Source: Streptomyces sp. IMTB 2501
Lineage (GTDB): Bacteria; Actinomycetota; Actinomycetes; Streptomycetales; Streptomycetaceae
Reading direction: 5' to 3'
Assembly (NCBI RefSeq): GCF_001953885.1
Contig: NZ_MQUS01000001.1
Span: 744,001-808,000, forward strand
Length of the DNA stretch: 64,000 nucleotides
Of the stretch, positions 1 to 12,185 are shown piece by piece; positions within the stretch are counted from its first letter, which is position 1; each line of letters starts with the position of its first letter. The translations under genes and the position numbers were made by a program. The notes under the pieces are model-generated. The model was not told the DNA's origin. It worked only from the letters and a program-made list of their open reading frames with translations, and did not search any database.

Positions 1-696
1 CGAAGCTGCCCACTACGACGGTCGCGACATGGCTGGCCATCGGCTCACCCATATGCCAACGCGACGTCGTACGCCGTCCCTTGTCCCGTATCCCGGTCAG
101 TTCGCCGTTGCTGACCGCTGTGTAGCCCTTGGGGACGGTGATGGTGATGTCGTACAGAGCTTTGTCGGACGGATGATGGTTGCCCGGGAACCAGGTCATC
201 GAGCCTGTCGGTTCTCCGAGCGCCGCCGCGCCGTCGTCGGTTTCGATCCACCCCTCCACGTCGTCGTCCGCAGCAGTGATCATCTTCGGGGTGCCGGAGT
301 AATGGATGGTGGTCGTGAAGGTCGCGCCGGTCTTGAGCGGATGAGCGGGCGTGAGGGTGAGCTTGTTCTTCTTGCTGCTCACCTCGGCGTCGGCTCCGTC
401 GATGCTCGCGTCGCGCACGCGCAGGCCCGCGAGGTCGAGGGAGAAGCGGCTCAGCGGCTGTTCGGCCCGGGCTGTGATCACCGCGGTACCGCCAGGTCGT
501 TGGTCTCCGGGACGTAGTCGAGTGTCAACTCGTAATGCGCGACGTCGTAGCCGCGGTTGCCCAACGTGGGAAACAGGGCGTCCCCTGCCGAAGCCGCACC
601 GGGTCTGGCGGATTCGTCGGGACGACCGTCGGAACTCGTGCAGGCGGTCCCGACGGTGAGGAGCAGCACGGTGAACAGAGCAGCCCGAGACGACAT
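1..696 (-). pseudogene. M1 family metallopeptidase lipoprotein, frameshifted, 3' part outside window
   Basis: N-terminal part of an M1 (aminopeptidase N-like) secreted zinc peptidase. The start is ATG at 696. Residues 1-22 form a signal peptide ending in a weak lipobox (VGTAC), followed by the M1 N-terminal beta domain (YDVAHYELTLDY). The frame hits TGA at 478, but shifting by one base near 484-491 (CTGGCGGTACC, one G short) restores an open frame to the window edge. That frame reads through family features such as MTWFPGNHHPSDKALYD and GEPMASHVATVVVGSF. The catalytic HExxH zinc site would lie beyond the window. Either a recent frameshift mutation or a one-base sequencing error in a G run; the intact reading on both sides favours one very recent event. 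Confidence 0.85.
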
Positions 697-1226
697 CAAA
701 GAGCAAGTCCGAGAGCGTGCGCCCCGTCCGGACCACGACCGAGGCACCATGCGCTCGCGCACCGGGAGCCCATATCGAAAGGAATGCCATGTGGCAGCCG
801 AGATGAAGGTAGCTCGTATCACGGTGGCGGCAGCCAGGCTGTGCCTCAACCTCAAGTTCCCCCTTTGCTGAGGTGTTCAGGGGCCGTGGTCAGCGGCCCG
901 ATCTGTTGCGATCCTGGACCCTATCCGCACCCACCCTCGAATGTAAAAACTATTCCATGAAGTCTCCAAGGGACCGTGAAACGGCTCTCACCGGCTGCGT
1001 GTCAAAGTCGACGAGAAGGTGGGGCGGGATGCGGAGCCGACGGCCGGCGTGGTCGACTCTCCGCCGCCCAGGTCTCTCCCGCTGCACCGGGTCGCAGACG
1101 CGCTGCTCGCCGATGATCGTGCTCATGGCCCGTTGCCTGGCCCGGTCATGCGCTGCGCGGTAGGCGCTGTCCACGCGCCTCGATCGCTTCCGGCAGATCC
1201 GGCGCCGGCCCGGACAGGTGGTTGTG
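697..1226. other. Intergenic stretch, no supported gene
   Basis: About 530 bases between the M1 start (696) and the stop of the deacetylase (1227), both on the minus strand. It must hold the M1 promoter. The open frames crossing it are extensions of frames that are antisense or out of frame to the deacetylase gene. I recognise no protein family, hairpin terminator or operator in it. Confidence 0.5.
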
Positions 1227-2483
1227 TCAGGACCTCTTGGCGGGGCGCAGGAAGGCTGCCCAGCCGGCGTCCGGTCTTTCGCCGACCCGGAGGGTGCGGA
1301 GTTGTGTGAGGACCGCGGGGTCCTGGGCGTCGAGCCAGTCGACGAACTGGCGGAAGGAGACCAGACGTACATCCTCCCGGCCGGCGATCCGTGTGAGCGC
1401 CTCCTCGGCCGCGTCCATGTAGATGCCGCCGTTCCAGTGCTCGAAGTGGTTGCCGATGAACAGCGGCGCCCGGTTCGTCTCGTACGCCCGCTGGAACCCG
1501 GCCAGGTACGCCTGTGTCGCCTGGGCCCGCCAGTACGGGTAGTTGTAGGAAGGTGCCCGCGTCGAGTTCTTGGACTGGTTCGCCAGCATGTTGTAGTCCA
1601 TGGACAGCACCTCGAACGAGTGCCCGGGGAACGGGATGCTCTGCAGCGGCAGGTCCCAGACGCCGTGCCGCTTCCTGGGCCAGCGTTGCAGTCCGCCCGG
1701 CGAGGAGGCGTCGTAGCGCCAGCCGAGTTCACGCGCGACCGGCAGCAGGTTCCTCTGGCCGAGCAGGCACGGGGTGCGGCCGCCCACGAGTTCCTTGTCG
1801 TAGTCGAAGGGGAGGGGTGGATGGTCGTGCCAGCCGGTGTGCGTGCGCCACGACGTGACGAAGGCTTGCGCCTGCTCGATCTCCGAACGCCATTGCGCCG
1901 AAGTCCAGTTGGCCACCGATCCGGGACCTTCGCAGAAGTGCCCGTTGAAGTGCGTGCCGATCTCGTGGCCGTCGAGCCAGGCCTGGCGCACGTACTTCAG
2001 TGTCTCCTTCAAGTGGGCGTCGGTGAGGTAGCCGATGTCCGAGGCGCCGACCGGGTTGTTCGGTGGATCGTAGAGCCGTTTCTTCTCCTCCGGGAGGAGG
2101 TAGAGCCCGGACAGGAAGAACGTCATGTGCGCGCCGTGGGTCCGGCCGAGCTCCAGGAAACGCGGGAACAGGCCGGTGCCCAACTCGCCCGCCCCGTCCC
2201 AGGAGAACACCACGAACTGCGGGGGAGTCTCGCCGGGTTCGAGGGGTGTGGGCGGCTCCGGCTGGTGCGGCTGCCGTCCGGTGTACGCCGTCGAGCCGTC
2301 CCCGATCAGCCGCGGTGCCTGTTGCGGGGGTGCCGCGCCCTGCCCTTTCGGGCCCCCCGGCGAGCCGCTGGGTTGGTCCTGTCCTCCGCACGCCGCCAGG
2401 GAGGCGGCGGCCACACCGATGCCGACGCCGAGCCCCAGGCGTGCCACACTCCGGCGGCTGATTCCACCCATTGCCATCCCCAT
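1227..2483 (-). CDS. Polysaccharide deacetylase-like lipoprotein
   Basis: 418 aa. The N-terminus has a twin-arginine signal (SRRSVARLGLG) and a lipobox (LAAC), so export through Tat and lipid anchoring on the outer membrane face are likely. The body resembles NodB-fold carbohydrate esterases: the first beta strand carries a D motif (VVFSWDGAG), then MTFFLSGLYLLP, then an HEIGTHFNGHF segment matching the metal-binding HxxxH. Late segments (FIGNHFEHWNGGIY) resemble the fold's closing motif. Probably removes acetyl groups from a cell-wall or extracellular polysaccharide; the substrate cannot be read from sequence. Stands alone; the neighbouring genes on the same strand are more than 150 bases away. 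Confidence 0.8.
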   Translation of the reverse strand: MGMAMGGISRRSVARLGLGVGIGVAAASLAACGGQDQPSGSPGGPKGQGAAPPQQAPRLIGDGSTAYTGRQPHQPEPPTPLEPGETPPQFVVFSWDGAGELGTGLFPRFLELGRTHGAHMTFFLSGLYLLPEEKKRLYDPPNNPVGASDIGYLTDAHLKETLKYVRQAWLDGHEIGTHFNGHFCEGPGSVANWTSAQWRSEIEQAQAFVTSWRTHTGWHDHPPLPFDYDKELVGGRTPCLLGQRNLLPVARELGWRYDASSPGGLQRWPRKRHGVWDLPLQSIPFPGHSFEVLSMDYNMLANQSKNSTRAPSYNYPYWRAQATQAYLAGFQRAYETNRAPLFIGNHFEHWNGGIYMDAAEEALTRIAGREDVRLVSFRQFVDWLDAQDPAVLTQLRTLRVGERPDAGWAAFLRPAKRS

Positions 2484-2653
2484 CCGCGCCCTGCCACGAC
2501 GCGTTGTGCACCCCCCCTCGGTCGAGCTTCCAACACCCGCACCATAAGGACGATAAACGTATAAATAGGCTGATCTGCTTCGGTGTGGCGTGCAAAGGTG
2601 TTGTCAAGCATCACTTGTGTCACCCGGTCGGCCCTGAGGGGCCATGCGGAGGA

Positions 2654-3475
2654 TCAGCGGAACGCCGCCGCATTCCGTGCCGCCCATGCGGAGAAGGGGG
2701 CCGCGGGGCGGCCGAGCAGACGCTCCACGTCCGTGCCGGCCTCTTGCTCCTGCGGTGTGGGTGCGCCGAGGACGGCTAGCGTGCCCTCGGCGACGGCGGC
2801 CGGCATGAACCGGATCATCTGGGCGTGGGCCTCCTCTCGGCTCTGCTCGACGAATGTCACCGTCTCGCCGAGCGCGGCGGCGATGGCGGCGGCCCGCTGC
2901 CGGGGAGTGGTGGGCTCCGGCCCGGTCAGCGTGTAGATGGCGCCGTCGTGTCCGTCTCCGCGCAGCACGGCCGCCGCCACCGCGGCGACATCGTCCGGGT
3001 CGACGAACGGCAGTGCCACATCGGCGAAGGGCGCCGCCGCGGTGCGGTGCCTGCGGATCGGCTCCGCCCAGGCCAGCGCGTTGGAGGCCAGTCCGCCCGA
3101 GCGCAGGACGGTGAAGGGCAACCCCGACTGGGCCACGGCCGCCTCGAAGCGCGCCGCGTGTGCGTATGTCTCCGGCCGGGTGCCAGCCCCCTGCGAGGAC
3201 AGCAACACCACCTTGGCGACCCCGGCCGTGGCGGCCTGACTCAGGATGCCGGCCGGATCCTCACCGGCCACCAGCAGGAACAGTGCCTTGGCTTCCGACA
3301 GTGCGGGAGCGAGGCTCTGCGGCTGCCCGAGATCGGCCGCGACGGCCCGCGTGCCTGGCGGAACGTCCTGCGTCCCGATGCGCCGGGCGACGGCCGTCAC
3401 CGATTCCCCGCCCTCGTTCAATGCGGCGACCAGGGCCCGTCCGACGTTCCCCGTGGCACCCGTGACAACGATCAT
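2654..3475 (-). CDS. NmrA/NAD(P)-binding SDR-type oxidoreductase
   Basis: 273 aa. Begins with the dinucleotide-binding GATGNVG motif (residues 6-12) and has the atypical-SDR pattern of NmrA/QOR2-like proteins (VVLLSSQGAG, FTVLRSGGLASNALAW, FVDPDDVAAVAA, TLTGPEPTT). Such proteins reduce quinone-type substrates or act as NADP sensors. Divergent from a TetR regulator with a clear palindrome in the shared 80-base gap, so it is the likely target of that regulator. The true substrate is unknown. Confidence 0.88.
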   Translation of the reverse strand: MIVVTGATGNVGRALVAALNEGGESVTAVARRIGTQDVPPGTRAVAADLGQPQSLAPALSEAKALFLLVAGEDPAGILSQAATAGVAKVVLLSSQGAGTRPETYAHAARFEAAVAQSGLPFTVLRSGGLASNALAWAEPIRRHRTAAAPFADVALPFVDPDDVAAVAAAVLRGDGHDGAIYTLTGPEPTTPRQRAAAIAAALGETVTFVEQSREEAHAQMIRFMPAAVAEGTLAVLGAPTPQEQEAGTDVERLLGRPAAPFSAWAARNAAAFR

Positions 3476-3491
3476 GGCATCTCCCCGTCTG

Positions 3492-3507
3492 AGTTAGTTG
3501 ACTAACT
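3492..3507. promoter_or_regulatory. Palindromic operator AGTTAGTTGACTAACT
   Basis: Perfect inverted repeat, AGTTAGT and ACTAACT with a 2-base centre, in the gap between the divergent oxidoreductase and TetR genes. Size and position are typical of a TetR-family operator. It sits 17 bases upstream of the oxidoreductase start, where bound repressor would block its transcription. Confidence 0.75.
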
Positions 3508-3550
3508 AAGTCGAGACGTTAGTCCGTGGTGGCACCCGTTGTCTATCCTT

Positions 3551-3562
3551 AGTCAGGTGACT
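3551..3562. promoter_or_regulatory. Second palindrome AGTCAGGTGACT over the TetR start codon
   Basis: AGTCA-GG-TGACT, preceded by TT and so resembling the first operator's TTAGT half. It overlaps the proposed GTG start (3557-3559) of the TetR gene. This suggests autoregulation by a repressor bound across the 5' end of a leaderless or nearly leaderless transcript. Confidence 0.5.
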
Positions 3563-4192
3563 GACTCAGAATTCGCGGCGACGGCCGGGGCCGCGCGGCC
3601 GAGCCGATCCGGTCGATCCGGCCAGGGTGGCGGCCGGGGCGGCAAGCGCGAGCGCCTGGTGAAGGCAGCCGTACAGGTCTTCCATGAGCAGGGCGTGGAG
3701 AAGACCACCCTCGGCGACATCGCCGGCGCGGCCGAGGTGCCGCTCGGCAACGTCTACTACTACTTCAAGACCAAGGACCAGCTCGTCGACGCCGCGGTGG
3801 ACGCCCACCGCGAGCAACTCGACGCGCTCACCGGCCGGTTGGACGCCCTCCCGGATCCGGTGGCCCGGCTGAAGGCGCTCGTCGCCGGATGGGTCGGCCA
3901 GCGCGAGACCGCGGCTCGCTACGGCTGCCCGTTCGGTACCCTCGCCACCGAGCTGGACAAGCGGGACGACGGCCTGGACCAGGCCGCCGCGCAGGTCATG
4001 CGAGCCCTGCTCGCCTGGGTGGAGGGCCAGTTCACCCAGCTCGGCCGCGCCGACGCCGCCGCCCTCGCGGTCGAACTCGTCGCCGCCTACCAGGGCATGT
4101 CCGTCCTCACCAACACCCTGCGCGACCCCGGCCTGATGGCCGTCCAGGGTGAACGCCTCCAGTCCTGGATCGACGGGATCGCGGGACGGTAG
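3557..4192 (+). CDS. TetR/AcrR family transcriptional regulator
   Basis: 211 aa from GTG 3557. The N-terminal HTH (about residues 32-75) contains TTLGDIAGAAEVPLGNVYYYFKTKDQLV, a classic TetR recognition helix. The C-terminal ligand domain has a conserved GCPFGTLATEL segment seen in the TetR_C subgroup that accompanies quinone or azo reductases. An upstream TTG (3539) is also in frame but has no better ribosome site; neither start has a clear Shine-Dalgarno, so leaderless translation from GTG is plausible. Represses the divergent NmrA-like gene (inferred from layout and palindromes). Confidence 0.88.
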   Translation: MTDSEFAATAGAARPSRSGRSGQGGGRGGKRERLVKAAVQVFHEQGVEKTTLGDIAGAAEVPLGNVYYYFKTKDQLVDAAVDAHREQLDALTGRLDALPDPVARLKALVAGWVGQRETAARYGCPFGTLATELDKRDDGLDQAAAQVMRALLAWVEGQFTQLGRADAAALAVELVAAYQGMSVLTNTLRDPGLMAVQGERLQSWIDGIAGR

Positions 4193-4315
4193 GAAGGCGA
4201 AAGCTACCGGGGGGGGAGTTGCGTCGTTCAGCGCTCGGCGGCAGGTGTATCCGGCCAATCTCCGGGCGGTGCGTCGCGGGACGGCGAACCGGCATGCGTC
4301 CGCTCCCGCTACCGA

Positions 4316-4336
4316 GCCGTCCGGCATCCGGACGGC
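4316..4336 (+). terminator. Hairpin after the TetR gene
   Basis: GCCGTCCGG-CAT-CCGGACGGC: nine perfect base pairs with a 3-base loop, 124 bases past the TetR stop and without a clear T run, as is usual for Streptomyces terminators. It separates the TetR unit from the atropopeptide locus. Confidence 0.55.
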
Positions 4337-4578
4337 CGGCACGGTGCCTCATCAGCATGCGAGGGGCAGTAGAGGCGCAGGGTGGGTGCTCGGCGGGGCG
4401 TGTGGTCAAAGCGGAGCGCCGGTGAACGAAGAAAGTCTGAAATCGACTACGCAGGAACGATTTTGATCCCTCCGGCGATTATCCCTCAGGCGGACAAGGG
4501 AAGTTTCCCGGAGCCATCGACACACGATCTTCACCAGCAGACTCCGGTGTCGCCGTGTGCCGCCCGTCCACCCTCTCC
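4337..4578. other. Leader region upstream of the atropopeptide precursor
   Basis: About 240 non-coding bases between the hairpin and the precursor's ribosome site. It is more AT-rich around 4425-4505 than its surroundings and must hold the promoter for the precursor/P450 pair. I could not pick out a confident -10/-35 pair. The precursor frame is open upstream to 4382, but that extension has no ribosome site and no resemblance to the leader. Confidence 0.45.
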
Positions 4579-4591
4579 AGGAGGTGCAGTG

Positions 4592-4672
4592 ATGAAGCTT
4601 CTCTTCGCCATCCGCAACAAGGTCGCGGCCACCAAGAGCCTCAAGGCGAACGCCTGGTATCTCTGGTACTGA
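4592..4672 (+). CDS. Atropopeptide (tryptorubin-type) RiPP precursor peptide
   Basis: 26 residues, too short for routine gene calling. ATG 4592 follows AGGAGG (4579-4584) at ideal spacing. Residues 1-20 form a basic amphipathic leader (MKLLFAIRNK, then VAATKSLKAN). Residues 21-26 are the core AWYLWY, placed directly before TGA (4670-4672). Established knowledge: tryptorubin A is a hexapeptide AWYIWY cut from the C-terminus of such a precursor and cross-linked by one cytochrome P450. This core differs by one residue, Ile to Leu at core position 4. The P450 gene follows 150 bases downstream on the same strand. Predicted product: a Leu-variant of tryptorubin with carbon-carbon and carbon-nitrogen aryl bridges and a non-canonical atropisomer shape. 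No dedicated leader protease is encoded nearby. Confidence 0.93.
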   Translation: MKLLFAIRNKVAATKSLKANAWYLWY

Positions 4673-4822
4673 TCCGACGCCTCGCCGTACAGGTGAGGTG
4701 ACGTCGTTGTCCGGCCGGCCGTGCGTGGTCACGGCCCGGCCGGACAGCGGTGGTACGCCGTACCGCGGCCTCCGGTCCTCTCGCGCCCTTCACCGACTGC
4801 CCGTTCACCACCGGGAGCATCC

Positions 4823-5869
4823 ATGCCGCCGTCTTCCGCCACGCGTGCGCGCACCACCGTGTTCGCCCCGCGGCTCGCCGCGCTCATCGGCACCCACACA
4901 GGACAGGACGTCTTCCGGCTGGAACCCGACACGATCGGCGTCGCGGGACACGAGGTCGCCGATCGCATCCTCGCCGCACGCCGGGCGACGGAGACCGAGC
5001 GCCCCACCTTCAAGCCGCTGCACGGGCGTTCCATCACACGCACCGAGGCGTCCACGGTCACCCGCACCATCGGCAACGACGTGCGTGAGGCACTGTCCGG
5101 ACCGCTGCCCAAGGACGTGGACCTCGCGGGCTCCTGGCCGCTGACCGGGCACGTCTTCCTGCGCGACCTCATCCTCGGCCAGGACCCCTACCGGCTGCGC
5201 ATGCTGATGAGCCGCAATCTCGAACTCACCCCGAAGCTCACCTGGTCGGTGATCGCGATCGGCGCCGCGCTGCCCGGCTGGCCCCGGCCGAGCAGCCGGC
5301 TCACCGGTCTCGCGGGCCGGGCCGCGCGGGCCACCGGCTACCAGGAGCGCCGGTACGCCATGGGCATGTACCGCAGGGCCGCCGCCCCCGTGTGCTTCAC
5401 CGTCTCGACCCTGGTGGCCAACGCGCTCTGGCTCGGTGCGCCCTTCGACGACGCCACACCCAACCGCGGCATCATCCTTGAGTCCCTGCGGCTGCTGCCG
5501 CCCTCGTGGAACATCCTGCGCAACGCCTCGCCCGAGTACCCGGCCATGGACGACCGGATCGGTGAGCGGGACGACGTCCTGGTGCTGCCGCTGCTGTCCC
5601 ACCGCGACCCTGCCCTGTGGGACGACCCGGACACCTTCCGCCCCGAGCGCTGGGACGACCTCGACCCCGAGACGACTCCGGGCTACCTCCCCTTCGGCCA
5701 CTCCTCCGAACGCTGCTGGGGCAGACACATGGTGATGCCGCTCGCCGAACTGCTGCTGGACCTGGTCCGCGGCTCGGGACTCGTCGTCGACCCCGGGCAG
5801 CACACCGGCAAGGTCCCGCTCCTCGGCCTGCTGGGCGTGGAGGACGTACGCCTGACGCACCCGCGCTGA
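4823..5869 (+). CDS. Cytochrome P450, atropopeptide cross-linking enzyme
   Basis: 348 aa from ATG 4823 (GGGAG at 4813-4817); an upstream in-frame ATG at 4721 lacks a ribosome site. Heme-binding loop FGHSSERCWG with Cys298 as axial ligand; ExxR is E220-S-L-R223; FRPERW follows as the PERF-like motif. The helix I region (STLVANALW) lacks the usual acidic/Thr oxygen-activating pair, and at 348 aa it is about 50 residues shorter than most bacterial P450s. Both traits fit P450s that make radical aryl cross-links rather than hydroxylations. It follows the precursor gene on the same strand and is the only tailoring enzyme visible. Predicted to install all macrocyclic bonds between Trp and Tyr side chains. 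Redox partners must come from elsewhere in the genome. Confidence 0.92.
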   Translation: MPPSSATRARTTVFAPRLAALIGTHTGQDVFRLEPDTIGVAGHEVADRILAARRATETERPTFKPLHGRSITRTEASTVTRTIGNDVREALSGPLPKDVDLAGSWPLTGHVFLRDLILGQDPYRLRMLMSRNLELTPKLTWSVIAIGAALPGWPRPSSRLTGLAGRAARATGYQERRYAMGMYRRAAAPVCFTVSTLVANALWLGAPFDDATPNRGIILESLRLLPPSWNILRNASPEYPAMDDRIGERDDVLVLPLLSHRDPALWDDPDTFRPERWDDLDPETTPGYLPFGHSSERCWGRHMVMPLAELLLDLVRGSGLVVDPGQHTGKVPLLGLLGVEDVRLTHPR

Positions 5870-5933
5870 CGGCACGGCCCTCGGGGGATGCCAAGCGGTC
5901 GGCTCCGGAAGTCCCTCGGAGGGGGACCGGGGC

Positions 5934-6120
5934 TCAGGCGGTGGAGGCGGCTTCGAGGAGCGTCTCAGCGGCGGCGGTACGGGCGTGGAGGACGGAGTGG
6001 CCGGCCCGGCGGGGCGCTGACCAGGCCCGCGCCACACAGCGCGGTCAGGTATGCGGTCAGGCATGGGGATGCCCCGGCCGGGGACAATCCGGTGCGGTGT
6101 GCCAGCTGGGTGGTGGAGGC
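5934..6120 (-). pseudogene. Relic of an ArsR-type HTH regulator (C-terminal half)
   Basis: Translation shows TTQLAHRTGLSPAG, LTALCGAGLVSA, then after a one-base shift near 6000 HSVLHARTAAAETLLEAAS and a TGA at 5936-5934. This is the recognition-helix and C-terminal portion of the actinobacterial ArsR/helix-turn-helix family, which usually reads GRSVLYARTAAAETLL. The N-terminal half is absent and a short duplication (LTAYLTA) interrupts the helix. Non-functional. It is fused directly to a transporter relic, indicating a deletion. Confidence 0.7.
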
Positions 6121-6251
6121 CGGCGCACCAGCTCCGCGAGCGGCCGGAGCCCGCCGCGGCTGCCGGCGGACGCGGCCCTGCGCTGGAAGGCGGTGCCCAC
6201 GGCGTTGCCCGCCGCTCCCGCGACGGCGAACGCCGCGACCAGTTCGATCAC
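6121..6251 (-). pseudogene. Relic of a DMT-type membrane transporter (first helix only)
   Basis: GTG 6251 is preceded by a good ribosome site (AGGAGA). The reading begins IELVAAFAVAGAAGNAVGTAF, then QRRAAS, matching the first transmembrane helix and QRKAA-type loop of Streptomyces DMT-family inner-membrane proteins. After about 40 codons the sequence loses the family pattern and runs into the ArsR relic in another frame. Only the 5' end of a once-working gene survives. Confidence 0.55.
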
Positions 6252-6425
6252 GACCGTCTCCTGCCGCGCGGCTCCTCGGAGTGGCTTCGGATCCCTTCAG
6301 CTCACGGAAGACAGCGCCCGGACGCCGGATCCGGCAGCGGGGTCCAGCGGGGCATGGACCGGCCCCGCCGGTGAGCGCCGAGCGGGGCCGGGTGGAGCGG
6401 TGGACCAGATCAGGATGAGGACGTC

Positions 6426-8174
6426 TCAGCTCACGCTCAGGTCGTCGGCGTACACCGCCCCCTGGCCGTACCAGCCGTGCACGTACACGGTGATCGTGCC
6501 CGAGGAGCCGGTCGTGAACGGCACCGTGAGTTTCGACCAGGACGAGGACGAGGTCCAGGTACTGGCCGTGGCGCCGCCGCTGACGCCGAGGTAGGCGTAC
6601 GGACCCTGCACCCAACCGCTCAGCGTGTAGGAGGTGTTGGGCTTCAGGGTCAGGGTCTGCGCGCACTGGCCCGTCTGCGAGTCTGAGGGCGCGGTCTTCA
6701 GCGCGTGCGAGCCGCCGTGCACGGGGGAGGAGACGACCGCGGCCCCGGTGTCGCAGGTCCACGGCGTGAGTGAGCCGGTCTCGAAGTCGCCGTTGGCGAG
6801 GGCGGTCGTGCCACCGGATCCGTTCACCGTCAGGGTGAGCGTGGAGCTGTGCCGGGTCGGGCCCGCCGTGCCGGTGACGGTCAGGGTGTAGGTGCCGGGG
6901 GGCGTGGAGGTGGCGCTCTTCACGGTGAGTGTGGAGGTTGCGCCCGCGGTGACCGAGGACGGGCTCAGCGAGGCGGTCACTCCGCTCGGCGCGCCGCTCA
7001 CCGCCAGATCGACGGACTGGGCGCTGCCGGCGGTCACGGACGTCTTCACCGACGCCGTCGTGGTGGCGCCAGGGTCGACCGAGGCGGTGGCGGGGGACAG
7101 GGACACCGAGAAGTCGTTGGCCGGCGGGGTCGTCGTACCGCCGGTGAAGGGTGCGAAGGTGTGGGTGAAGTACCAGGTGTCCTGGGCGATGCCCGAGCAG
7201 GTGTCGGAGGCGCTGCCGCCGGGGCAGCCGCCGTTGTCGCGCTGCAGGGCCCAGAAGGAGAGGGTGTTGATGCCCTTGGAGACCGCCCAGTCGTACACGG
7301 TCGTCGCGTCGGCGGTGGTGAACGTCTCCGCCGGGCCGTAGTCGTCCACGCCGGGCATCTCCGTGACGCCGACCATGTTCCACAGCTGACTGTCCGACAG
7401 ATCTGGGTGCAGCGAGGCGAGTTGGTCGTGCAGTCCGCTCGCGGCCGTCTCGGTGTCGGTGGCCATGTGGTGCGTGGCGCCGTCGTAGTAGTCGAACGTC
7501 ATGATGTTGACGACGTCCACCTTGGCGCCCGCGCTCTTCGCGCTGCGCAGCACGGCGAGACCGCTGTCGGCGAGCCCGGTCGTCGTGGTCGGCAGGGTGT
7601 ACGAGAACTGCACCGAGCGCCCGTTCGCGGCGGCCCAGTCCTGGACCTTCTTGATGGCCTGGTTGCGGCGGTCGATGCCGGCGGTGTTCGTGAGGGAGTT
7701 GTCCTCGACATCCATGTCGAGCCGGGAGACGTCGTAGGTGGTGATGATCTTCTCGTAGGCCGCGGCGATGGAGTCCACGTTCGCGCAGCTGTCGGCGATC
7801 TCGGTGCCCGCGTTGTCGGCCCCGTAGCCGCCGAGGGAGGGGATCACGTCGCCGCCGCGCGAGCGGATGGTGGTGAAGTCGGCGCCGAACACCGAGGGGC
7901 TGACGGGCGTGCTCGTGTCACCGTTCCAGTACGGGGTGCAGGAGCCCTTCTTGTCGGCCTGCAGGAAGGCCATGGTCAGGTACTTGGCGCCGGAAGCCTG
8001 CGAGAGCGCGGCGGGGCTGTTGCTGTTGTAGGCCTCGAAGTAGGGCGCGAAGACGTGCGCGGGCAGCGGGGTCGCCGCGTGGGCGGTGCCTCCGGCCCCC
8101 AGGGCGAGCCCTGCGGAGGCGGCCAGTGTGGCCAGGCCTGCGAGCAGGGCGCGTACGGGTCTCGGACGTGTCAT
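6426..8174 (-). CDS. GH18 chitinase with fibronectin/Ig-like and carbohydrate-binding domains
   Basis: 582 aa, secreted: Sec signal residues 1-33, cleavage after AHA. GH18 barrel about residues 38-345 with catalytic D153-M-D155-V-E157; Glu157 is the acid/base. The hydrolase ends near FTHTFAPFTGG. A proline/threonine linker leads to an Ig-like repeat domain (about 355-440, FSVSLSPATASVDPGA) and a C-terminal CBM4/9-type jelly-roll (about 455-582, NGDFETGSLTPWTC). Hydrolyses chitin outside the cell to feed N-acetylglucosamine uptake. Two dre-like sites upstream indicate DasR control, as for other Streptomyces chitinases. Confidence 0.93.
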   Translation of the reverse strand: MTRPRPVRALLAGLATLAASAGLALGAGGTAHAATPLPAHVFAPYFEAYNSNSPAALSQASGAKYLTMAFLQADKKGSCTPYWNGDTSTPVSPSVFGADFTTIRSRGGDVIPSLGGYGADNAGTEIADSCANVDSIAAAYEKIITTYDVSRLDMDVEDNSLTNTAGIDRRNQAIKKVQDWAAANGRSVQFSYTLPTTTTGLADSGLAVLRSAKSAGAKVDVVNIMTFDYYDGATHHMATDTETAASGLHDQLASLHPDLSDSQLWNMVGVTEMPGVDDYGPAETFTTADATTVYDWAVSKGINTLSFWALQRDNGGCPGGSASDTCSGIAQDTWYFTHTFAPFTGGTTTPPANDFSVSLSPATASVDPGATTTASVKTSVTAGSAQSVDLAVSGAPSGVTASLSPSSVTAGATSTLTVKSATSTPPGTYTLTVTGTAGPTRHSSTLTLTVNGSGGTTALANGDFETGSLTPWTCDTGAAVVSSPVHGGSHALKTAPSDSQTGQCAQTLTLKPNTSYTLSGWVQGPYAYLGVSGGATASTWTSSSSWSKLTVPFTTGSSGTITVYVHGWYGQGAVYADDLSVS

Positions 8175-8259
8175 CGGGTACTCCCGGTAGCGAACGAACG
8201 ACAGGCGTGCGAGCGGGTGTCGTGCGGAGATGGCGCGCTGTGCGGCCCGGCCGGGCTAT

Positions 8260-8287
8260 TGGTCTAGGCCATGATTGGTCTGGACCA
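8260..8287 (-). promoter_or_regulatory. Tandem dre-like DasR sites of the chitinase promoter
   Basis: TGGTCTAGGCCA (8260-8271) and TGGTCTGGACCA (8276-8287), 16 bases apart, each one or two mismatches from TGGTCTAGACCA. The same 12-base direct repeats are known in Streptomyces chitinase promoters and form the core of the DasR-binding dre element. They lie about 90 bases upstream of the chitinase start. Confidence 0.85.
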
Positions 8288-8418
8288 AACATCGGTCAAG
8301 GTGTGGGAGCAGCCTTTTGCCCGTTCATGGGGGAGCCAACCGGCTGGATAACGGAGGGAGTTGACGGCCGCCTCGGTCGGGAGCCGGTGCCTCCAGCCGC
8401 AGGTGGCGCCCGCACCGG

Positions 8419-8770
8419 TCACACCCTGCTCGACGTCGCCGTGTCCGCCGGCAGCCGCCGGGTGACGTAGACCGGGATCACCGACGGCAGGAAGAGCACC
8501 GCGGCCACGACGTTCACCACCGGTGCGTGCTGCGGCCGGGCCATGTTGTCGAAGATGCAGATCGGGAGGGTGCCGATCCAGGGGCCCGCGGTGAACGTGG
8601 TGACCACGATCTCGTCGAAGGAGAGCGCGCAGGCGAGCAGCGCTCCGGCCGGCCGCGCGGAGCGGACCAGCGGGAAGGTGACGTCGGCGAAGGCGCGGAA
8701 GCTGGTCGCGCCGAGGTCCATGGCCGCTTCCCCGTACGAGGCCGTGGTACGGCGCAGCCGGGGCCGCCAG
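8419..8770 (-). pseudogene. Relic of PotC-type spermidine/putrescine ABC permease (C-terminal half)
   Basis: The frame ending at 8419 contains RLRRTTASYGEAAMDLGATS, LSFDEIVVTTFTAGPW, TLPICIFDNMARPQHAPVVN and VVAAVLFLPSVIPVYVTRRL. This is the cytoplasmic EAA loop and last helices of PotC permeases. The N-terminal half (first helices) is missing upstream of about 8770, and no PotA, PotB or PotD partner is present. A truncated, non-functional remnant. Confidence 0.8.
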
Positions 8771-9113
8771 CGAACCGGGATGGAGGACCGCGAGCCACAG
8801 CCCCGGAAGACGGTGTGCACGTCCCCCTCGAAGGGGGCGAGGCCGGTGACCTCCCACGACTGCCGCGCCCGGCCCATCTGGTCAACGCCCGCGGCCGGGG
8901 CGCCGCCTCCGCCGACCCCGCCCACCTGGCCGGATCCCTCGCCAGGGGCCCGGACTTCGGCGAACTGCTCGGCACGGCCCGGCCCGGCGTGCACGACGGC
9001 GTGCGCCTGGTCCCGTGCCGGGGAGTGCCCCTCGCGCTGGTGCCTGCCTGAGAGCCGGGGCCCAGTCCTGAGCTTGCGGGGATCGGTCGCGCGAGCTGGA
9101 AAGGGCGGGCGGC
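8771..9113. other. Gap of decayed sequence
   Basis: Between the PotC relic and the flavin reductase stop. The plus-strand frame at about 8870-9051 (LPRPAHLVNARGRG, RPGVHDGVRLVPCRG, VPLALVPA then stop) reads like the end of a protein gene, but I do not recognise its family. It has no start and may be another relic. Confidence 0.3.
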
Positions 9114-9722
9114 TCAGTCGAGGGTGCGGTCCCGGTACGGCACCCGGGCCAGCTCGCGCACCTCGCCCACAGTGCCCCACTTGTTCCCGCCCAGCCGGGA
9201 CAGCGGCCTCAGCCGGCCGATGTCGGGCCGGCCGTCCAGCAGCACGTCCTCATGGACGGCGGCGTGCACGACCCGGCCGAACACCACCGTCGAGTCACCG
9301 AGGCGGAGCGTCGAGTGCAGCGTGCACGCCAGGGCGACCGGAGACGCCGCCACCCGGGGCGGCCGCACCCGCAGCGACGGCTCCCGCTCGATGCCCATCG
9401 CCTCGAACTCGCCCTGGTCGCGCGGGAAGTCGGTCGCGGTCGCGTTGATCTCGGTGAAGAGCGGTTCCGGGGCGAAGTTGACGACGAACTCGCCGGTCTC
9501 CTCGACGTTGCGCAGCGAGTCCTTCCAGCCGACCGACGTGAACTGGACGACGGGCGGAGCGGTGCAGGCCACGGTGAAGAACGAGTGCGGGGCCAGGTTC
9601 GCCGTCTCGCCGTCCGGCGCGAGGGTCGAGACCCAGGCGATCGGGCGGGGTGTGACGACGGCCGTGAGCAGACGGCAGAACGCACCGGGCGGCATGGAAT
9701 CGGGGCAGTAGCCGACGCGCAC
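9114..9722 (-). CDS. Flavin reductase-like FMN-binding protein
   Basis: About 202 aa from GTG 9722 (an upstream in-frame ATG at 9782 gives 222 aa, but family similarity begins at YCPDSMPPGAFCRLL). Motifs of the DIM6/NtaB flavin reductase-like family: LLTAVVTPRPIAWVST, NLAPHSFFTVACTAPP, KDSLRNVEETGEFVVNF. It binds FMN in a split barrel and uses NAD(P)H to reduce flavin, or acts on small substrates directly. Divergent from the EamA gene, whose start lies about 100 bases away. Confidence 0.85.
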   Translation of the reverse strand: MRVGYCPDSMPPGAFCRLLTAVVTPRPIAWVSTLAPDGETANLAPHSFFTVACTAPPVVQFTSVGWKDSLRNVEETGEFVVNFAPEPLFTEINATATDFPRDQGEFEAMGIEREPSLRVRPPRVAASPVALACTLHSTLRLGDSTVVFGRVVHAAVHEDVLLDGRPDIGRLRPLSRLGGNKWGTVGEVRELARVPYRDRTLD

Positions 9723-9827
9723 GACAGCACGCCAAGCCGTACCGCCGCGCACCGTTCCCCCCGCCCCACCGTTGATCATCAAGGGGGCGCCGCCCTAAGG
9801 TGCGAGGGCACTCGCACAAGGAGCCCG

Positions 9828-10775
9828 ATAACCATCAGTCAGCACCTGACTCCTCGCGCACGCGCGACGCTCGCCCTCGGCCGGGGACTCGGCGCCGCGC
9901 CGGCCCCGGGGCTCGTCCTCGGCGGGATCCTCGGTCTGCAGGGCGGGGCCGCGCTGACGACCCGCCTCTACCCCGCCGTGGGTCCGGCGGGCGTGGTGAC
10001 CCTGCGGCTGGCCATCGCCGCGCTCGTCCTCACCGCGCTGTGGCGGCCCCGGCTCCGCGGCGACCGGGCCACCCTCGGCATCGCGGCCGCCGCCGGCACC
10101 CTGCTCGCCGTGCACCACCTCGCATACTACGAGGCGGTCGCCCGGCTGCCGTTGGGCGCCGCCACCACCCTGGAGTTCCTCGGTCCCTTCGCCATCGCCC
10201 TGTGCGGCTCGCGCCGCGCCCCCGACCTGCTGTGGGCGGCCCTCGCCGCGACCGGAGTCCTCCTGCTCAGCCACTCCGGTACGGCCCTCGACGCGACGGG
10301 CATCGCATGCGCGGCCCTCGCCGGTTGTTGCTGGGGCGGATACATCCTGGTCGGCAAACGGCTGGCCGAACGCGTCCCCGACGGCCGCGGCCTCGCCCTC
10401 GCCGTCACCTGGGGGGCACTGCTCAGCCTTCCCTACGGCGTCACGCAGGCGGGCGCCCGCCTTCTGGACCCGGACACCCTCGCCGTGGCCGGGGCGGTCG
10501 CCGTGCTCTCCAGCGTCCTGCCGTACACCTTCCAACTGGAAGCGCTGCGCCGGCTCACGCCCCGCGTATTCGGCATCCTCACCAGTCTGGAACCGGCGAT
10601 CGGCGCGCTGATCGGCCTGCTCCTCCTGGGCCAGCACCTCGCCGCGCCCCAATGGGCGGGGGTGGCGGCAGTGGCCCTGGCGTCGGTGGGAGCGACGCGC
10701 ACGGAGGAGGCGGAGGAGAGGGCAGGGAAGGCGCGAGCCGCGGACGACCGGGCCGAGGCCGCTCGGGACGGCTAG
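9828..10775 (+). CDS. EamA/DMT family inner-membrane exporter (RhtA-like)
   Basis: About 315 aa, ten predicted membrane helices in two EamA halves (about residues 20-145 and 155-285). RhtA-type features include GPAGVVTLRLAIAALVL, TTLEFLGPFAIAL and FGILTSLEPAIGALIGLLLLGQ. Likely exports amino acids or metabolites. The start is unusual: no ATG, GTG or TTG lies near the conserved N-terminus, while AAGGAG (9818-9823) precedes an in-frame ATA (9828) and ATC (9834); CTG 9846 is also possible. The in-frame ATG far upstream (9252) is antisense to the flavin reductase gene and not credible. The C-terminal tail is rich in Ala, Glu and Arg. Confidence 0.85.
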   Translation: MTISQHLTPRARATLALGRGLGAAPAPGLVLGGILGLQGGAALTTRLYPAVGPAGVVTLRLAIAALVLTALWRPRLRGDRATLGIAAAAGTLLAVHHLAYYEAVARLPLGAATTLEFLGPFAIALCGSRRAPDLLWAALAATGVLLLSHSGTALDATGIACAALAGCCWGGYILVGKRLAERVPDGRGLALAVTWGALLSLPYGVTQAGARLLDPDTLAVAGAVAVLSSVLPYTFQLEALRRLTPRVFGILTSLEPAIGALIGLLLLGQHLAAPQWAGVAAVALASVGATRTEEAEERAGKARAADDRAEAARDG

Positions 10776-10847
10776 GGCACGCCTGTCCCGCGCGGCCCGT
10801 GGTGACCGGATGCGCTCGGCGGCCGCCGCTGATGCTGTCGGCGGGGG

Positions 10848-11636
10848 TCACCGGCCGGGCAACGGGCGTACCGTGAGGGTCTGTTGGGCCTGGCCGACCG
10901 GGCCGTGGATGTCGTGCAGGACGCTGCTTGTGAGGCCGAGCCCGGTGGGGCCGAAGACGACTGTGGTGTCCAGGCCGACCCAGCGGCCCGCCGGTTGCCG
11001 GTGCAGATGGATCGTCAGGTCGACGTTGGGGAACATCCACTCGGTCGGCGGCCGGCGTACGGCGATGCCGTTGGCCGTGTCGATCAGGGCGACATAGGAG
11101 GCGAGCGGGCTGCTCGGTTCGCCCGCGACGAGGTCGAGGGCCGTGGAGATCCAGGCAGTGGCGCGTCCCGGCTCGGCGGGGCCGACTGGCCGGACGTCGA
11201 CGGACGCGCAGTGGCCGCCGGGCCAGACCGAGCCCAGCGACTGACCGGCGAGTCCCTCCGGCGGGGTGAGCCGTTCCTCGGGGCCGCCTGCCACGGCGCT
11301 GGTGTCCGCCTCGGTGAGCAGCCAGGCACGGGCCCGGACCACCGGCCGGTCCGCGATGCGTACGACCGCTTCGAGCAGTTCGATGGTGCGGCCGGGCCGG
11401 ATCGACTCCACCTGGATCTCGCACTCGTCGAGGGCGAGGCGACCCAGGATGTCGTAGCTGATCCTGGACAGCAGCAGTCCGGTCGGCGGGCGCTCGGCGC
11501 GGTACTGGTCGATCGCGTGGACCACGAGTCCGGCGAGCGGGCTGAAGTGCTGCTCGTCGGTGTCCCACGCGCCGCCGGCGTGCGGGGTGGGCTTGAAGCG
11601 ATGCCGGTCGATGCGCTCGAAGTAGGTGGCGGTCAA
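10848..11636 (-). CDS. Acyl-CoA thioesterase-like double hotdog protein
   Basis: About 262 aa from TTG 11636 (GAGAGG at good spacing; family similarity begins TATYFERIDRHRFKPTPHAGGAW). An in-frame GTG at 11663 gives 271 aa but lacks a ribosome site. Resembles the actinobacterial thioesterase family with two hotdog folds: LLLSRISYDILGRL in the first, WMFPNVDLTIHLHRQP and GPTGLGLTSSVLHDIHG in the second. Probably hydrolyses acyl-CoA thioesters. Convergent with the EamA gene; upstream neighbour is the Lrp regulator on the same strand. Confidence 0.8.
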   Translation of the reverse strand: MTATYFERIDRHRFKPTPHAGGAWDTDEQHFSPLAGLVVHAIDQYRAERPPTGLLLSRISYDILGRLALDECEIQVESIRPGRTIELLEAVVRIADRPVVRARAWLLTEADTSAVAGGPEERLTPPEGLAGQSLGSVWPGGHCASVDVRPVGPAEPGRATAWISTALDLVAGEPSSPLASYVALIDTANGIAVRRPPTEWMFPNVDLTIHLHRQPAGRWVGLDTTVVFGPTGLGLTSSVLHDIHGPVGQAQQTLTVRPLPGR

Positions 11637-11726
11637 CGGGTGCCTCTCGTCACGGCGTACCACGGTGTACAGGGGCAGGGAGCGATGGTGCGGGTCGTTG
11701 CACCGTACACCGGGATACCCGCCCGC

Positions 11727-12185
11727 TCATGGGCCGCTCTTGATCGTCTTCATCGTCAGGTGGGAGTCGATCCGCAGCACACAGGGCAGACCGCTCAGTT
11801 TGTCCACCAGGAAGGCCTCGTACGCGGCGTGATCGGCGACGGCCGCGCGGAGGAAATAGTCGGGACGGCCGTACATGCGCCGGAACTCGATGACCTCGTC
11901 GTATCCGGCCACGATGTCCTCGAACTCCAGGAACGTCGTGCGGTCGTTGGCGCTGACCTCCACGTCGATCAGGACCTCCAGGCCCCGGCCGAGCGCCCCG
12001 GGATCCACCACCGCCCGGTATCCGGTGATGACCCCGGCCTCCTCCAGCCGCTTGACCCGGCGCAGACACGGCGGTGGGGTCAGGCCCACCCGCTGGGCCA
12101 GCTCGACGTTGGTCAGCCGACCGTCACGGCGGAGGTGAAACAGAATGTCCCGGTCGATGGCATCCAGGTTCATTTCATTGCGCAC
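11727..12185 (-). CDS. Lrp/AsnC family transcriptional regulator
   Basis: 152 aa. N-terminal HTH (DAIDRDILFHLRRDGRLTNVELAQRVGL) followed by the RAM/AsnC ligand domain (about residues 65-145), which binds amino acids and forms octamers. It lies back to back with azlCD, the branched-chain amino-acid exporter, across a 60-base gap, the standard AzlB-type arrangement. Inferred role: amino-acid-responsive control of azlCD. Confidence 0.92.
   Translation of the reverse strand: MRNEMNLDAIDRDILFHLRRDGRLTNVELAQRVGLTPPPCLRRVKRLEEAGVITGYRAVVDPGALGRGLEVLIDVEVSANDRTTFLEFEDIVAGYDEVIEFRRMYGRPDYFLRAAVADHAAYEAFLVDKLSGLPCVLRIDSHLTMKTIKSGP

Follow-up and report, generated by a model that had tools for sequence, protein, structure and literature searches.

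What does a 26-codon gene that ends in AWYLWY and is followed by a single cytochrome P450 gene make, and what lies in the gap between the two? Both genes come from the window, by which we mean the whole stretch of DNA analysed here (64,000 nucleotides of Streptomyces sp. IMTB 2501, contig NZ_MQUS01000001.1). The preliminary description reported a 26-codon ORF with a ribosome site, AWYLWY before the stop and then a P450, and direct reading confirmed this arrangement:

4579-4584, + strand: ribosome-binding site AGGAGG of the precursor gene, 7 nt 5' of the ATG (from the sequence)
4592-4672, + strand: precursor gene, 26 aa, MKLLFAIRNKVAATKSLKANAWYLWY (translation; NCBIfam NF038372)
4823-5869, + strand: cytochrome P450 gene, 348 aa, predicted core cross-linker (Pfam p450; relatives; tree)

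The precursor gene starts at ATG 4592 and stops at TGA 4670-4672. Its leader is encoded by 4592-4651, with KSLK at 4634-4645 (residues 15-18), and the core AWYLWY by 4652-4669, in which the Leu codon is CTC 4661-4663. The ORF is not a product of chance, since the precursor matches the NCBIfam model NF038372 (“tryptorubin family RiPP precursor”) over positions 1-26 of 26 with 53.4 bits (E 2.3e-14; curated cut-off 33 bits), and the P450 matches Pfam p450 with 49.4 bits against a cut-off of 22.8, in its C-terminal part only. The pathway had been called easily missed, which is not supported: the NCBI family model is passed easily, and AtropoFinder has already mined 683 atropopeptide clusters (PMC11450843). 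In a whole-genome search of the strain, the precursor family was matched at the window locus and nowhere else, while 43 of 392 genomes in a survey of the genus (own genome included) contain such a match, 41 of them above the NF038372 cut-off. In one genome of the genus (G357:C1), two tryptorubin-family precursor matches are found at about 0.17 and 1.97 Mb (L022 and L040), about 1.8 Mb apart.

The P450 gene begins 150 nt past the precursor gene. Its start was set at ATG 4823, as 19 aligned relatives begin at or within about 10 residues of the same ATG; the start given in the mechanical ORF list, GTG 4721, was rejected on account of these relatives. The ExxR motif is ESLR (residues 220-223, at 5480-5491), and the heme-cysteine motif surrounds Cys298 (codon 5714-5716); E220, R223 and the cysteine are invariant in the 19 aligned relatives. 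Residues 188-200 of the P450 (window 4634-5869) read APVCFTVSTLVAN, which is I-helix-like and lacks the acid-alcohol pair, the usual motif of the P450 I-helix, and little or no variation is seen at nearly all of these positions in 20 relatives. Modelling of the P450 with AlphaFold2 (mean pLDDT 55.1 from 20 rows) gave a result too poor for use.

To which family does the pair belong? The protein search with the P450 found 424 proteins, and the best 20 among the 120 listed are 86-93% identical to it and 348-353 aa in length. The P450 of the jum locus of Streptomyces jumonjinensis is 79% identical (78% in the multiple alignment), and P450 P0089 from Streptomyces laurentii 78%. We take P0089 to be LauB1, because the other, second P450 of the lau locus is described as having 28% identity to TryB (PMC11450843). 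A quick maximum-likelihood tree was built from 84 rows, all of the tryptorubin-type P450 family and with no unrelated P450s among them, and in this tree the window P450 falls in a 10-row clade (support 95) nested in a 19-row clade that includes the jum P450 (support 97); 28 of the 81 inner branches are weakly supported. Atropopeptides have been redefined by a class-defining P450, a KSLK leader motif and a Trp at core position 2 (PMC11450843). All three are found here: the P450 shares the 19-row clade with its 79% identical jum relative, the leader carries KSLK and the second residue of AWYLWY is Trp. Judged by these features, the locus is a predicted two-gene tryptorubin-type (atropopeptide) RiPP locus, a new case of a kind already known and widespread. 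The proposal of a minimal atropopeptide locus is supported by the three published features, and the tree check suggested with it turned out in its favour, as the P450 falls together with the enzyme of an atropopeptide locus that has been expressed: the jum locus (NZ_VCLA01000160.1), expressed in S. albus, gave amyxirubin B (PMC11450843). The window locus adds a likely producer to a peptide class that is known and chemically striking.

In order to compare, we scanned one genome per species, which gave 130 P450 relatives, and kept the best 80. A precursor lies upstream in all 80 of these best relatives, 77 found by motif and three by eye. The three carry unusual leader motifs just upstream of the P450: QSLK with core TWYLWY (L065), RSFK with core AWYHWY (L093) and KNLK with core AWYIWY (L113). 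AtropoFinder needed one of six leader motifs (PMC11450843), and loci of these three types may be absent from its count because their motifs are outside the required six. In Xanthomonas cucurbitae (L108, 10001-11011), the P450 stretch has one in-frame stop, from a broken copy or a sequence error. The genes around the window locus are the following:

2654-3475: NmrA-like gene, divergent, upstream of the locus
3539-4192: TetR regulator gene, upstream of the locus
6426-8174, - strand: GH18 gene with a carbohydrate-binding domain (CBM_4_9), downstream of the locus

At a threshold of at least 60% identity and coverage, 1 of the best 80 of 130 relatives has the TetR and NmrA genes at its side, and 3 of 80 have the GH18 gene. 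As flanking genes seldom recur, the conserved unit consists of the precursor, the gap and the P450. GH18 relatives with 86-88% identity are located near the P450 in L046, L054 and L055.

The core AWYLWY had been presented as new. Of 81 loci (the window and the best 80 of 130 relatives, with L065, L093 and L113 added to the counts by hand), 19 have it as their core; they come from Streptomyces, Streptacidiphilus, a Pseudonocardiaceae strain, Xanthomonas, Luteibacter and Burkholderia, and so from two phyla, and the claim of novelty falls with this count. The string AWYLWY has no occurrence in the main full texts of the literature searched, and AtropoFinder's list is expected to hold this core. 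On the 81-row P450 tree, the least numbers of changes at core positions 1 to 6 are 5, 0, 1, 25, 1 and 6, so that position 4 needs at least 25 changes versus 0, 1 and 1 at W2, Y3 and W5; on the 84-row tree, of which 78 rows are labelled, position 4 takes 21 changes. When only Leu and not-Leu are distinguished at this position, at least 12 changes are needed on the 81-row tree. Evolution has arrived at the AWYLWY core repeatedly. Position 4, between bonded residues, is a natural diversification site, with W2, Y3 and W5 nearly fixed.

The product can be predicted from relatives. The KSLK region would be where the P450 recognises the leader, and the enzyme would form Trp-Trp, Trp-Tyr and Trp-backbone bonds with loss of four hydrogens; a host protease encoded outside the locus would then release the Leu4 analogue of tryptorubin A, from which loss of Ala would give an analogue of tryptorubin B. 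Varsorubin B1 has one C-C and two C-N bonds and the mass of the linear peptide minus four hydrogens, tryptorubin B carries three modifications of this same type, and a fourth bond brings laurentirubin to minus six (all PMC11450843). The preliminary description proposed looking for the linear mass minus six hydrogens for three cross-links, which is wrong in view of varsorubin B1; this test would miss the expected product, since four hydrogens are lost when three bonds of the tryptorubin type form. For Leu-tryptorubin A with three bonds, [M+H]+ is expected at 897.393 and for its des-Ala form at 826.356, with the linear peptide at 901.424. Mass cannot separate the Leu product from tryptorubin A or B, because Leu and Ile are isomers. 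As for substrate tolerance, ScaB cyclised an Ile-to-Leu variant at the matching core position of ScaA and, among the variants listed, accepted every one except I25R (PMC12352619).

That the window P450 makes three bonds we infer from kinship. Scabrirubin and varsorubin B2a each have one bond, and kinship among P450s predicts the product imperfectly (both PMC11450843), both of which favour an enzyme that makes fewer bonds, for example one Trp-Trp bond, and a simple monocycle instead of Leu-tryptorubin. We consider this outcome unlikely in view of the nearest expressed relatives, jum (79% identical) and lau (78%, if P0089 is LauB1 as inferred), which both give multiply bonded products.

The gap between the two genes contains a further feature:

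4705-4749, + strand: intercistronic hairpin, 19 pairs with a 6-nt loop and without a U tract, predicted attenuator or mRNA-protecting stem (folding, covariation)

The preliminary description, whose family assignment stood while its core novelty and mass test did not, missed this hairpin. The whole 150-nt gap folds with a z score of -2.88 versus dinucleotide shuffles, and the first 100 nt of the gap with -5.91. A second, smaller predicted stem opens the gap 5' of the main hairpin (4674-4702; GCCUCGCC/GGUGAGGU type). Rfam at gathering scores gave no match in window positions 1-12000.

The hairpin was spotted first in the window and then tested in other loci. In 78 loci (the window and 77 named loci; L065, L093 and L113, whose precursors were missed by the motif filter, were left out), the 100 nt past the precursor stop have a mean z of -3.47, with values below -2 in 62 and below -3 in 41 of the 78. 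Where a clade has short gaps, this fixed length extends into the P450 gene, which dilutes the z score. The controls are much closer to zero: mean z is -0.42 in the 100 nt before the precursor (5 of 78 below -2), -0.30 in the next 100 nt further upstream (8 of 78), -0.18 and 0.12 at two places within the P450 gene (4 and 5 of 78), and -0.31 and -0.15 at random flanking places (4 and 3 of 62). Ordinary co-directional gaps of 60-240 nt from the same loci, with genes called by a simple GC3 rule, are below -2 in 21 of 125 cases, and convergent gene ends in 15 of 43.

A held-out second set of 23 distinct loci of the genus was weaker than the first set, with 13 of 23 below -2. The genus search and its follow-up had given 43 loci, in four of which the precursor was not found, and 117 gaps were reduced to 101 that are distinct by their first 100 nt. 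In total, 75 of the 101 loci, which are related and not independent, are below -2 past the precursor stop and 26 are above this threshold; by sequence cluster, the median z passes -2 in 16 of 24 clusters and stays above it in 8. The hairpin of the jum locus is weak (top stem of 5 pairs, z -2.02). The hairpin is frequent among the loci, not universal, and its signal could aid the search for divergent loci.

Covariation alignments were made for four clades and hold 44 of the 101 loci. The alignment of the window clade has 15 rows, 12 of the 13 loci in the window's cluster (the jum locus, L107, was left out) and 3 from a neighbouring cluster; the others hold 11 of 12 loci (L086 left out), 10 of 10, and 8 of 9 (L068 left out). 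In the window clade, 98.1% of cells are standard pairs and two-sided changes occur in 4 of 14 pairs, while sliding the partner by 1-3 columns makes pairing fall to 30-59%. The other three clades, whose stem letters differ, have two-sided changes in 5 of 15, 6 of 22 and 3 of 15 pairs. In all four clades, the cell numbers and the covariation scores were reached by at most 2 and at most 5 of 500 shuffles, respectively. Some other measures do not stand out from the shuffles: further pair types were matched or exceeded in 87 of 500 shuffles in the clade with 6 of 22 pairs and reached in 386 of 500 in the clade with 3 of 15, where the number of pairs with two-sided changes was also reached by 88 of 500. 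The structure of the hairpin, rather than its letters, is conserved in most related loci examined.

An inverted repeat can also act as DNA, for example as an operator, and the well-conserved stem letters within the window's clade would fit such a role. On the + strand, however, mismatches inside the stems are 72 G-U against 15 A-C, counted in related loci and thus not as independent events, where base composition predicts 1.04 to 1; the stems of this test were defined by Watson-Crick matches only, over at least 8 positions, and 99 of 101 loci qualify. The different stem letters in the other clades also speak against an operator, as does the uniqueness of the repeat in the genome (next best 37 bits, 114 for itself), and we regard a role as DNA as highly improbable.

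Between the precursor and the enzyme gene there is a structured stem kept by selection, the arrangement looked for in an attenuator. From the above, the precursor is probably cross-linked by the neighbouring P450, and the conserved hairpin probably lowers P450 expression relative to the precursor. For the mechanism, we give partial transcription termination (attenuation) about an even chance. RNA polymerase would partly stop at the hairpin, and the precursor message would exceed the P450 message; such an excess would suit the pathway, in which every precursor is consumed once and the enzyme turns over. A ribosome site inserted before svaB raised the product 100-fold (PMC11450843), a result that fits a scarce P450, yet concerns translation and not transcription.

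A canonical intrinsic terminator was considered and rejected, as the stem tail in the window, GTGGTACGCCGT, has no U tract and a count of 4 or 5 T in the 10 nt that follow the stem is reached in only 20 of 111 gaps. No terminator-like site was detected in 4150-6450, where shuffles expect 0.3. The GC stem, which is very stable, lacks a U tract and begins at a median of 23 nt past the precursor stop codon, would also fit the main rival to attenuation, in which the hairpin keeps exonucleases from attacking a processed precursor mRNA at its 3' end and the precursor excess comes from mRNA stability. We find 3'-end protection somewhat doubtful as the main role. The strength of the stem and the occurrence of gaps of 65-234 nt could instead point to a full terminator of the precursor gene, with the P450 transcribed from its own promoter. 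This is improbable in our view: in the 73 of 78 loci with a stem of at least 10 pairs, the median distance from the stem end to the P450 is 41 nt and 34 of the 73 have less than 40 nt (the P450 being taken to start where its tblastn match does, at or beyond the true start), so there is little room for a separate P450 promoter. No sigma-70-like promoter was found in 4150-6450 either, a weak argument since shuffles expect only 0.1.

Taking attenuation as the preferred reading, atropopeptide operons of Actinomycetota and Pseudomonadota may share a covarying hairpin as a built-in throttle that sets the amount of P450 per precursor, and its removal may raise titres family-wide. This wider reading we hold tentatively, at a little short of even and not at even, since both the jum locus and the held-out set show the hairpin less strongly than the first set. 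If the hairpin throttles the P450, its deletion would be a simple route to higher titres, and the hairpin is the part of the locus worth following.

Compared with known systems, the window locus is like the tryptorubin A/B loci (LauA and LauB1 of S. laurentii) in its 26-aa type precursor, KSLK leader, AWYxWY core and dedicated P450. It differs from them in having Leu at core position 4, where they have Ile, and the second P450 of the lau locus has no counterpart here. The jum locus has the same two-gene layout and a 79% identical P450, whereas its core is AWYIWW, its leader motif RSLK and its stem weak, against AWYLWY, KSLK and 19 pairs in the window. The closest loci are those of Streptomyces echinatus, S. 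lucensis and other AWYLWY loci (L046-L052), with an identical core, a near-identical leader, a hairpin of matching type and P450s 87-91% identical to that of the window (best 91%). In the texts consulted, these loci have no reported product.

The stem itself also has parallels outside the family. One is found in bottromycin, past btmD, which we take to be its precursor gene. An attenuator has been proposed downstream of btmD, with the later genes less transcribed (PMC7113386), the internal terminators of clostridial ABC importer operons combine a long GC stem with few U (PMC9045158), and a hairpin was removed for the expression of astexin-1 (PMC7549694). A stem directly past the precursor gene is not described in the available passages of PMC6107846 or PMC3141056, and term searches of the main texts of PMC11450843 and PMC12352619 found no mention of a hairpin between the precursor and the P450. 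The loci btmD-btmE of bottromycin, astexin-1 and the clostridial ABC importers resemble the window locus in having a stem directly past the first or precursor gene. They belong to other families, in which lower downstream transcripts have been reported or proposed, whereas the stem of the window covaries across its family.
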